Positions 9,180 through 34,562 of a DNA stretch of 37,772 bases are shown piece by piece (the stretch's first letter is position 1; the number at the start of each line of letters is the position of its first letter). A program made the translations under genes and the position numbers. The stretch spans positions 1 to 37,772 of the forward strand of contig CAIYFD010000326.1 in assembly GCA_903925425.1 (NCBI GenBank), in the 5' to 3' direction. The notes below the pieces were generated by a model. That model had not been told where the DNA came from and did not search any database. It saw only the letters and a program-made list of their open reading frames with translations. This stretch comes from an uncultured Opitutia bacterium. Its GTDB lineage: Bacteria > Verrucomicrobiota > Verrucomicrobiia > Opitutales > Opitutaceae.

Positions 9180-9255
9180 TGGAGCGGGCGAAGAGACTCG
9201 AACTCTCGACGTCTACCTTGGCAAGGTAGTGCTCTACCAACTGAGCTACGCCCGC
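9180..9255 (-). tRNA. tRNA-Gly (GCC anticodon), CCA encoded
   Basis: Minus strand GCGGGCGTAGCTCAGTTGGTAGAGCACTACCTTGCCAAGGTAGACGTCGAGAGTTCGAGTCTCTTCGCCCGCTCCA; cloverleaf arms pair; anticodon loop TTGCCAA. Confidence 0.97.
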
Positions 9256-18409: not shown

Positions 18410-18413
18410 GCGC

Positions 18414-18484
18414 GGTAGGGCGGGTCACTCCGTGACCGCCACGATGATAATCTGAACGGCGGCGAGCGGAGGCGCCGCCCTGCC
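18414..18484. repeat. Paired-hairpin intergenic element (element C)
   Basis: GGTAGGGCGGGTCAC-TCC-GTGACCGCC-ACGATGATAATCTGAAC-GGCGGCGAG-CGGA-GGCGCCGCC-CTGCC. Confidence 0.75.
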
Positions 18485-18496
18485 GGGATTCCCGCC

Positions 18497-20504: not shown

Positions 20505-21524
20505 TCAGAGGTGCTTGAACTCGGTCTTTTCCCGCGGCACGGGCAGCGGGAGTTCGTCAAGCTTGCCTTCGGCCAGCACGACCTCGTAAGCCGTGCGGAA
20601 ATGGAGCTTGGCGAAGTCGCCCAGCGCGCGCGCGCCGAACTGCCGCATGATCTCCGCCGCCTGCACCTTCACCTGCGCGCTGGCGCCTTTCTGCAGCTTG
20701 GCCCCGAATTTCTGCGAGAGTGCGTGCATCTGGCGGACGTACTCGGCCCGGGCCACGATGGAGGCAGCGGCGACCACCGGGTCCTCTTCCGCCTTGGTGC
20801 GCATCCGAAGATCAAAGCCCTCCGGCCGCAACTTCTTCAGCTCACGCTGCACGAGCGGCTGCTCGCTGAACTGGTCGAGCAAACCCCACGGCACGGTCTT
20901 GCGGTCGAGCGCGTTTTTCAGCGCCGTGGCGTGCTGCCACGCGAGGAGCTTGTTCAGGCTCTGGTACGGCCGGCTCATCAGCTCGTTATACCGGGCCATG
21001 GTGTGACAGAAGCAGGTCTCGGCCACCGCGCCCTTGGTCGTGCGGATCAGGCGGTCGAGTTCGAGAATCTTGCTTTCGGCCATCTTTTTCGAGTCCTGCG
21101 CGCCGGCCTTGCGCCAGGTCTCGATGGCGTCCTTGTCGGCGATCACCGTCGCCGCAATCACGGGACCGAAGAAGTCGCCCTTGCCGCTCTCGTCGAGGCC
21201 CGCGTGCGACTCAAACCAGTCAGGATGCAACACTTCGTCATAGCCGAGCTTCGCCGCGCCCGTGATCTCGGGTTCGATCACGTCGCGCACGAAGTCCTCG
21301 GTACCCTTGCCGGCGATGACGACCTTCCCGCTGGTGTACGCGCTGACGTTCACCTTGAGGTGATCGGCCCGATAGGCGAAGCGGGTGTAGCCCACCTCGA
21401 ACGGGGTCCAGCCCTTCGCCGCGAGCAGCGCGCCGAGTTTCGCCATCTGCTCGTCGGTGAGCTTGACGGTGTAGGAGGCGATTTTCTTCGGCTGGTCTTC
21501 GTCTCCAGCGGTCGGCTTGGGCAT
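20505..21524 (-). CDS. rnhC: Ribonuclease HIII
   Basis: N-terminal TBP-like domain (YTVKLTDEQMAKLGALLAAKGW) plus GLDESGKGDFFGPVIAATV; start MPKPTAGDEDQ at 21524. Confidence 0.93.
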   Translation of the reverse strand: MPKPTAGDEDQPKKIASYTVKLTDEQMAKLGALLAAKGWTPFEVGYTRFAYRADHLKVNVSAYTSGKVVIAGKGTEDFVRDVIEPEITGAAKLGYDEVLHPDWFESHAGLDESGKGDFFGPVIAATVIADKDAIETWRKAGAQDSKKMAESKILELDRLIRTTKGAVAETCFCHTMARYNELMSRPYQSLNKLLAWQHATALKNALDRKTVPWGLLDQFSEQPLVQRELKKLRPEGFDLRMRTKAEEDPVVAAASIVARAEYVRQMHALSQKFGAKLQKGASAQVKVQAAEIMRQFGARALGDFAKLHFRTAYEVVLAEGKLDELPLPVPREKTEFKHL

Positions 21525-21530
21525 GGGTCC

Positions 21531-21820
21531 ATGGCCACAAAAACCGCGAGCTGACTCAATGGTGAATTGCGGGATGGCCGCAAAAAGGCGCAAGAGGCGC
21601 AAAAACGGAACGAACCCCCTGAGATTTTGCCACCGCGGCACCGAGACGCAGAACCCCGCCTTTTGGTTTGGGTTCCAAACCCCAAATCATTTGACCTCGG
21701 TGTCTCTGCGGCTCTGTGGCGAAATCTTCCGTGCGCCTCCTGCCTTTTGGCGGCCAAAGGAATTCCGTGACGATTGGTTGCGGCTTTATCACGTCGTCTC
21801 TTTTCGTGGTGTCCGTGGCC
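21531..21820. repeat. Multi-tier nested palindrome between rnhC and mutY
   Basis: Tiers: GGCCGCAAAAAGGCGCAAGAGGCGC (21576-) with GTGCGCCTCCTGCCTTTTGGCGGCC (about 21732-); GATTTTGCCAC..GAGACGCAGA (21623-) with CTCGGTGTCTCTGCGGCTCTGTGGCGAAATC (to 21726); core GGTTTGG-GTT-CCAAACC (21665-21681); possible outer TGGCCAC pair. Confidence 0.7.
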
Positions 21821-22852
21821 AAGTCCCCCACTCAACTCATTGCCGCAAAAACCCGCTTCCGGCGGGCGCTGCTGGACTGGTATCGCGCCCACGCCCGGCC
21901 CCTGCCGTGGCGGGAGGCGCCGTCGCTCTACCGGACGGTGGTGAGCGAGTTCATGCTCCAGCAGACGCAGGTGAAGACGATGCTGCCCTATTTCGCGCGC
22001 TGGCAGACGGAGTTCCCCAACTTCGCAGCGCTGGCCGCCGCGCCTGAGTCGCGCGTGCTGCGGCTCTGGGAGGGGCTCGGGTACTACTCCCGCGCCCGCA
22101 ATCTGCACCGTCTCGCCCGGGCCATCGCCGATCTGCCGTCTCCGCCAACGACCCCGGCGGAATGGCGCGAGCTGCCGGGAGTCGGCCCATACACCGCCGC
22201 TGCGATCACCAGCATTTCATTCCGCGCGCCGGTCGCCTGCGTCGACGGCAACGTGGTGCGCATCCTCGCCCGGCTCACCGCCAACCCAAAGCGCTTCCCC
22301 GATAGCGCGACCGCCGCGAAGGTCTTCACTCCGCTCGCCAATGCGCTGCTGAATCCGGCCGATCCCGGCGACCACAACCAGGCCATGATGGAACTCGGCG
22401 CCACGATCTGCGCGCGCCAGAACCCACGCTGCGGGGAGTGCCCCGTAAAATCTTTCTGCGCCGCCGCCAAGGCCGGCGCCCCGGAGAAATTTTCCCGCTT
22501 CGCCGCCAAGCAGATCGAAAAGCGCGACGTCGTCCGCGTGTGGTGCCGCCGCGGCCAGACCCTCCTGCTCCACCGCGCCTCCGCCACCGCGCGCCGCCTC
22601 GCCGGCCAGCATGAACTCCCAACTGCGGAGCAATTTGGATTGCCCGCGACGGTGGTCAGCGGCGGGAAGCTGCTCGGCCAAAAGACCCGCAGCATCACGC
22701 GCTACCGGATCCGCGAAACCATCCACGCGTGCAAACCACCGGCTGACTCTTTCCCCGCCGGCCTCGTCTGGGTCCCACTCACCGAGCTGGAACACCTCAC
22801 CCTCTCCGGCCCCCACCGCCGTTGGGTCACGGAGCTGCTGTCGGCAACGTGA
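21716..22852 (+). CDS. mutY: A/G-specific adenine glycosylase
   Basis: SEFMLQQTQVKTMLPYF, LPGVGPYTAAAI, VDGNVVRIL, 4Fe-4S CARQNPRCGECPVKSFC. True start uncertain; likely a GTG around 21806-21815. Confidence 0.93.
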   Translation: MAKSSVRLLPFGGQRNSVTIGCGFITSSLFVVSVAKSPTQLIAAKTRFRRALLDWYRAHARPLPWREAPSLYRTVVSEFMLQQTQVKTMLPYFARWQTEFPNFAALAAAPESRVLRLWEGLGYYSRARNLHRLARAIADLPSPPTTPAEWRELPGVGPYTAAAITSISFRAPVACVDGNVVRILARLTANPKRFPDSATAAKVFTPLANALLNPADPGDHNQAMMELGATICARQNPRCGECPVKSFCAAAKAGAPEKFSRFAAKQIEKRDVVRVWCRRGQTLLLHRASATARRLAGQHELPTAEQFGLPATVVSGGKLLGQKTRSITRYRIRETIHACKPPADSFPAGLVWVPLTELEHLTLSGPHRRWVTELLSAT

Positions 22853-24320: not shown

Positions 24321-24506
24321 TTTTTAACCACGGATTACCCGGATGGCACGGATGGGAACTTAATCCCCCGGCAATTTCACAGGAGAACGCGGAGGTCGCG
24401 GAGAATGCCGGAATGAAATCCTCCCCTTCCTCCGTGCCCTCCTGTGAAACCGGTTCGAATGCGTGGGTTCGAATCCGTGCCATCCGGGTAATCCGTGGCT
24501 AAAAAA
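24321..24506. repeat. Two-tier nested palindrome
   Basis: Outer TTTTTAACCACGGATTACCCGGATGGCACGGAT (24321-24353) versus ATCCGTGCCATCCGGGTAATCCGTGGCTAAAAAA (24473-24506); inner TTTCACAGGAG..CGGAGG versus CCTCCGTGCCCTCCTGTGAAA. Confidence 0.85.
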
Positions 24507-33335: not shown

Positions 33336-33545
33336 GGTAGGGCTGAGGCGGCGCCTCAGCCGCGATGCTTTCGGATTTTTCGCCACAGAGGCCCAGAGAG
33401 CACAGAGCCCAAGCCGCGTTGATTTTATTGGGCTCGGAAATCAGAAATCCGGGCACTCATCCGGTCCGACCTCTGTGAACTCTGTGCCTCTGTGGCAAAA
33501 CAGGTTCGGACCCAATCGCGGCTGACTCACCGAGTCAGCCCTGCC
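33336..33545. repeat. Paired-hairpin element with a CACAGAG palindrome nested between its hairpins (element E)
   Basis: GGTAG-GGCTGAGGC-GGC-GCCTCAGCC at left; GGCTGACTC-ACC-GAGTCAGCC-CTGCC at right; inside, TTTTTCGCCACAGAGGCCCAGAGAGCACAGAG versus CTCTGTGAACTCTGTGCCTCTGTGGCAAAA. Confidence 0.85.
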
Positions 33546-34438: not shown

Positions 34439-34490
34439 AACAAGCCGGTTCCCTTTTGCGCTTCTTGCGCCATTTCGCGGCCAACAATCA

Positions 34491-34562
34491 GCCTGCTTCG
34501 TCCCACCCTTGGCGGGACTACGCAGGCCACGGTCGCGGCCGGCTCGTCGAGCCAGCCCTACC
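34491..34562. repeat. Composite: second-family hairpin followed by a CTACC-flanked 9-bp hairpin (element F)
   Basis: GCCTGC-TTC-GTCCCACC-CTT-GGCGGGAC-TAC-GCAGGC then GGCCGGCTC-GTC-GAGCCAGCC-CTACC. Confidence 0.8.

Follow-up and report, generated by a model that had tools for sequence, protein, structure and literature searches.

In the 37,772-nucleotide stretch analyzed here (the window), a compound inverted repeat of three nested layers fills the space between the starts of the divergent genes rnhC and mutY. We consider it likely that an old palindrome received in its loop a member of a second palindrome family, B, which already carried a member of a third, family A, and that these families spread as miniature mobile elements. 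The flanking genes, named in the first-pass annotation from the sequence alone, are an RNase HIII-like open frame of 339 amino acids (rnhC, 20505–21524, minus strand, ATG at 21524), which reads away from the element, and an A/G-specific adenine glycosylase-like open frame (mutY, 21806–22852, plus strand, candidate GTG starts at 21806, 21809 and 21815). Orthologues of rnhC were found throughout the Opitutaceae, and mutY orthologues adjoin it in relatives. The window comes from an Opitutaceae metagenome-assembled genome (MAG) of 2.93 Mb in 377 contigs, referred to below as G000. The nearest relative found, with an RnhC identity of 94%, is a MAG labelled Opitutus sp. GAS368, apparently the same as our second genome of the genus, G002.

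Anatomy of the nested repeat

A nested palindrome had been described in this gap in the first-pass annotation; the structure is real, each named arm was recovered in its place, and the tiers are indeed different repeats. Self-alignment of the left half against the reverse complement of the right half scored 64, above anything seen in 500 shuffles (mean 27.5, maximum 50), and positions 21500–21840 folded as single-stranded DNA gave −75.8 kcal/mol against −57.0 ± 3.8 for shuffles (z −4.9; 0/100). The stem is imperfect, and an ungapped repeat finder returned no inverted pair within the nested structure. Two corrections are needed: the repeat extends over 21531–21821 rather than 21524–21820, and the tiers number three, not four.

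All arms are given here on the plus strand. The oldest tier consists of a left arm, ATGGCCACAAAAA (21531–21543), whose motif many relatives share at an unchanged distance from the start of rnhC, and a right arm, TTTTCGTGGTGTCCGTGGCCA (21801–21821), which overlaps the mutY start region and whose motif many relatives have ahead of or across the start of mutY. Inside it lies family B, which supplies the arms originally called outer. Its left arm, ATGGCCGCAAAAAGGCGCAAGAGGCGCAAAAACGGA (21574–21609), matches many other loci of the genome at up to 97% identity, and its eroded right arm, TTCCGTGCGCCTCCTGCCTTTTGGCGGCCAA (21727–21757), which has lost several bases relative to the family, was placed by alignment to the copies of the composite, B with A in its loop or B[A], at loci L144 and L226. 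L226 was considered as the orthologue of L144 and rejected, as only the repeats match and the true orthologue is L247. A junction, ACGAACCCCCTGA (21610–21622), leads from B into a single family A unit, made up of a left arm GATTTTGCCACCGCGGCACCGAGACGCAGA (21623–21652), a loop (21653–21695) and a right arm CTCGGTGTCTCTGCGGCTCTGTGGCGAAATC (21696–21726), with several loci matching the whole unit at 72–75%. The core GGTTTGG-GTT-CCAAACC (21665–21681, GGTTTGGGTTCCAAACC), previously taken for a separate repeat and so for a fourth tier, does form a hairpin, but the same core sits in the loops of other A copies, for example GGTTTGGTTCCGAACCC, and it is the conserved loop of family A. The middle arms and the core are thus one element.

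The oldest tier in relatives

The pair of arms that had been thought merely plausible is the most widely conserved tier of all. In many Opitutaceae the outermost palindrome recurs at the same place between rnhC and mutY, usually alone, in a gap of mostly 56–105 bp as against 273 bp in the window; it reads GGCCACAAAAA..GCACRAAA.....TTTTGTGCC..CGTGGCC. Self-complementarity at p <= 0.01 was seen in 29 of 88 gaps, some relatives being represented twice among the 88. The end motifs of the arms tend to change in concert, GGCCAC occurring with GTGGCC and GGCCGC with GCGGCC (counts 33/8/1/5, Fisher p 0.004, with kinship ignored and a crude motif search). No consensus RNA structure emerged for the outer tier when 31 short gaps were submitted to RNAalifold, so a single RNA structure was dropped, and the concordance of the arm ends is all that we report. 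When an old-pair copy from one relative was used as a query, 21–22 matches were obtained in each of the genomes G017 and G002 and about 10 in each of three other genera, which relates the pair to dispersed repeats.

Families B and A were absent from the gap in every relative read. The gap of G002 holds neither, and has instead a different palindrome with GTGACGG-type units; the state immediately before insertion is therefore not displayed by that genome, and we counted this against our account, as we counted in its favor the outer pair standing alone in the short gap of many relatives. The expectation of the first-pass annotation that outer tiers would appear before inner ones is borne out by the old pair; a single event is the favored reading for B and A.

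These gaps also bear on the idea that the whole is one indivisible functional hairpin, a structured RNA, two-way terminator or regulator between the two genes. The family-wide retention of the oldest tier and the concerted change of its ends speak for such a role, which that tier alone might have in the divergent start region. For the structure as a whole, however, the gaps of relatives already contradict the idea, B and A being dispersed repeats that are missing there. Nor did any Rfam model match the nested repeat at gathering score, the sole match in the whole window being a tRNA at 9183–9255, and with no consensus structure on the short gaps either we regard this explanation as hardly credible.

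Differing palindromic inserts were observed between the old arms of this gap in seven other Opitutaceae sequences (L073, L127, L042, L048, L049, L095 and L123), that of L073 reading ACCACGAATGAACACGAAG../..TTCGTGTCCATTCGTGGTTAAA.

Families A and B and their composite

Family A is a unit of ~110 bp composed of an arm TTTTGCCACAGAGGCACAGAG..CACAGAG, a loop with GGTTTGGGTTCCGAACCC and the reverse complement of the arm, while family B consists of TTGGCCGCAAAAAGGCGCAGAAGGCGCAAAAACGGA and its reverse complement around varied loops. With arms of ~30–36 bases and loops mostly of 20–90 bases there is no room for a gene, and both families thus resemble MITEs in having terminal inverted repeats without one. 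The arms, which begin TTTTGCCAC in A and TTGGCCGC in B, lack the GTAG tag of REP and REPIN sequences. In a 474-kb sample of G000, in which contigs with matches are over-represented, we counted 67 A and 36 B arms, and in 800 kb of G002 not chosen by matches the numbers were 51 and 26; at the sites inspected the copies are intergenic. Each family occurs without the other at many loci, and B copies that lack A carry other loops.

The composite recurs. Copies of B[A] with the junctions seen in the window (..AAACGGAACGAACC on the left, TTCCG.. on the right) lie at G000:C4 and its counterpart G002:C92, two orthologous loci 88% identical over 2.5 kb, and also at G002:C26, an unrelated locus; GGAACGAACC of the left junction is common to all of them. 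The same junctions are therefore found at three non-orthologous loci, one of them common to G002, and the orthology of G000:C4 and G002:C92 places A in B before the two species split. Because these junctions recur in composites at other loci and in the congener, B[A] probably entered the old palindrome of the window as one ready-made unit rather than tier by tier, a reading based on comparison of junction sequences.

The alternative is stepwise assembly on the spot, B entering the old palindrome and A then entering B, independently of the other B[A] loci. Both families are active on their own, and the A loop of the window runs opposite to that of the other three B[A] copies, which under our account calls for a flip or a second event and was counted against it. 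Set against this are the bases between B and A, GGAACGAACC on the left and TTCCG on the right, which match the other composites, and the different loops of B copies without A. We consider stepwise assembly at this site improbable. The proposal in the first-pass annotation of repeated insertion of palindromes into the loops of earlier ones is thus supported for the genus, where loop nesting occurs in several orders, and unsupported as tier-by-tier assembly of this particular site. An indivisible unit in relatives, which that annotation named as a refutation, is found for B with A and not for the whole structure.

A loops flipped in the same place were also seen in two orthologous pairs, L145:12390 / L189:3412 and L162:13716 / L184:4336. 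Such flips are most simply read as recombination between the inverted arms, independent insertion being the alternative.

We propose the following course. The old palindrome would have lain between the rnhC and mutY start regions in Opitutaceae; at another locus A would earlier have entered the loop of B, and B[A] would then have multiplied as a unit. A non-autonomous B[A] would have inserted into the loop of the old palindrome, widening the gap from roughly 60–105 to 273 bp. More generally, several palindrome families of the genus may multiply as miniature mobile elements and settle in one another's loops, so that nests would accumulate partly stepwise and partly through the copying of composites.

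Nesting across the genus

Self-comparison of the 474 kb of G000 revealed at least five families, namely A, B and E without a GTAG tag and H, C and K with one, which lie inside one another in various orders. The arms of A, B and E are alike in build, ~30 bases in three near-tandem units of 8–11 bases with no GTAG tag, and these three lie within one another in several orders, up to three or four tiers deep. Arms could be paired in 195 elements across that sample and 890 kb of G002, and 18 nestings were resolved in seven host-guest combinations: H[A] five times, A[B] five, B[A], A[E] and C[K] twice each, and H[B] and D[K] once each, the H[B] case being H[A-left-B] with the right A arm lost. None of the resolved nestings contains a crossing pair. 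The arm consensuses were hand-written from first matches and extended once with more variants, which makes these counts lower bounds that depend on the choice made; the B[A] of the window is itself outside the 18, since the loss of several bases leaves its B right arm too eroded for automatic pairing. Matches to the H-A-E families numbered 44, 24 and 39 in three genomes of the genus as against 0–5 in the other genera searched.

All 18 guests lie in loops. The loop is expected to make up 19–47% of an element, and under random placement within hosts the chance of 18/18 would be about 2e-9 if the cases were independent, or about 5e-5 with ten junction types, which were grouped by eye after seeing the data; neither figure allows for broken-arm elements that escape detection. 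That escape is the substance of an explanation by survivorship, in which guests land anywhere and an element whose arm is struck becomes unrecognizable by decay, or in which nesting persists through protection, a longer spacer serving to shield a long palindrome from SbcCD and similar hairpin nucleases. Our detection does rely on recognizable arms, the expected loop share is already sizeable, and complete replacement of orthologous spacers is common between the two species. On the other side stand the low chance values just given and the joined flanks of paired elements in both genomes, among which there was no clear case of one family inserted into the arm of another and a single weak one, E within E, of an arm running across the junction. 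We put survivorship at a little short of an even chance; it concerns mechanism rather than history and is compatible with the other explanations. Loop placement may accordingly reflect targeting of extruded hairpin loops or loss of elements with broken arms, about equally.

A second nest and further palindromes lie within the window. At 33336–33545 a GTAG-tagged H dimer holds a family A palindrome in its loop, and the orthologous spacer of G002 (L186:1586-2042) shows H[A] in which A encloses another GTAG palindrome. A family E palindrome, TTTTTAACCACGGATTACCCGGATGGCACGGAT and its reverse complement around a loop of about 120 bases, occupies 24321–24505.

Turnover of spacers between two species

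Comparison of orthologous gaps of at least 40 bp showed a recognized arm in at least one species in 49 of 68, mostly of differing families. Clean empty orthologous sites exist for H[A] (L142:2274), A (L169:2292), H (L166:479) and D (L150:5315), and the gain or loss of whole elements is therefore real. Target-site duplications could not be read at these sites, the spacers being much diverged between the two species; the lack of a readable duplication or defined element end was counted against our account, and the presence and absence of whole elements for it, as were the separate occurrence of B and A and the 18 resolved nestings.

The same comparison weighs on a reading without mobility, in which template switching and slippage during replication generate the palindromes where they stand, and gene conversion makes different loci alike. 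Arms of 3–5 near-tandem units in many families would suit such an origin, as would different palindromes in the same orthologous spacer of two species. It is difficult to reconcile with the high identity at unrelated loci, which extends to asymmetric loops and composite junctions, and with the empty orthologous sites, and we regard it as very unlikely.

Palindrome turnover looks fast while genes stay in place, and the nests show that the spacers in front of housekeeping genes, rnhC and mutY among them, can be rewritten between close species. The orthologous spacers of L142, L143, L145, L162 and the window, when set beside L182–L189, often hold different palindromes with multi-unit arms (units GTGACGG, GTTCTC, GTTCAAC, TTGAAG, TCTGACT and ACGGAT). 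A GTAG-tagged C dimer at 18413–18486 likewise has a different palindrome in the orthologous spacer of G002 (L187:4098-4240). Two sites, L143:2590 / L182:4523 and L162:13716 / L184:4336, were considered as decisive cases of a shared outer and a different inner element and were set aside, as the tips of the H hairpin differ between the species and the A loop lies in opposite orientation, so that independent insertion at the same spot is possible.

Candidate mobilizers and known systems

The lack of a known mobilizer for A or B was also counted against our account. A PF01797 profile search of the genome found one Y1 transposase gene (L161:9438-10680), whose own long inverted ends, GGGGTCGGGACGCTAA..TTAGCGTCCCGACCCC, match neither A nor B. 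It lies directly after left arms of H and A, the loop position of an H[A] nest, and the right arms are missing. RAYT enzymes recognize REP DNA in its single-stranded form and cut it at GTAG (PMC3733652), a mode that would suit the tagged families H, C and K; the tag is missing from A and B. With REPINs the associated RAYT gene is flanked by the same repeat; the PF01797 gene stands beside arms of H and A and has inverted ends of another sequence. It shares such ends with the TIRYT / TIRtrons, tyrosine transposase genes with unrelated terminal inverted repeats (PMC3733652), although the difference of these ends from A and B means that the gene is not shown to move either family.

GTAG- or CGTC-tagged REP sequences and REPINs with RAYT are short, abundant, intergenic palindromes, often inverted dimers, and are thought to be non-autonomous (PMC3733652, PMC3116915, PMC2817692); the families described here are likewise short palindromes in many copies, intergenic at the sites inspected. 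Families H, C and K, which are not part of 21531–21821, share with them a GTAG beside the hairpin, whereas A, B and E differ in their three-unit arms of ~30 bases, the lack of GTAG and their mutual nesting in several orders. GTAG or CGTC repeats inserted within palindromes have been reported from three bacteria (A. variabilis, T. roseum and H. neapolitanus), and the verrucomicrobial species O. terrae is described as highly enriched in GTAG repeats (PMC3733652). The insertion sequences IS1397, ISKpn1, IS621 and ISPpu9 target REP palindromes (PMC1525189), so there too a resident palindrome serves as the landing site for mobile DNA; here, in contrast, the guests are small gene-less palindromes that are hosts in turn. 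Mitochondrial hairpin and double-hairpin elements (PMC2800124) are likewise dispersed hairpin repeats that form compound hairpins, but they do so by tandem insertion rather than loop nesting of unlike families, and in organelles rather than bacteria. The open-licence literature yielded no description of multi-family, multi-tier nesting or of families A, B and E, which is weak evidence, and searches of it for loop insertion and for the literal A sequence returned nothing specific.

With these REP precedents known, the nesting seen here is unusually extensive and fit for testing loop-targeted insertion. Where insertion is into a loop, the outer tier cannot be younger at that site than the inner one, and each nest can then be read as a small ordered series of invasions. 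Because the genus is rich in nests, and spacers in congeneric genomes are empty or filled in another way, it becomes testable whether bacterial palindromic repeats insert preferentially into loops and what moves families without a GTAG tag. One tentative reading, which we consider distinctly less likely than its opposite, is that the palindromes with three-unit arms (A, B, E, D, T and their kin) form an undescribed class of miniature mobile elements inserting specifically into the hairpin loops of resident palindromes, as single strands or by way of an extruded cruciform, by a Y1-type or other enzyme. If so, each palindrome would be the landing site for the next, and spacers would lengthen and be renewed in Russian-doll fashion.

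Right arms of B and H also stand alone at 34454–34562 in the window, probably as remnants of broken elements.
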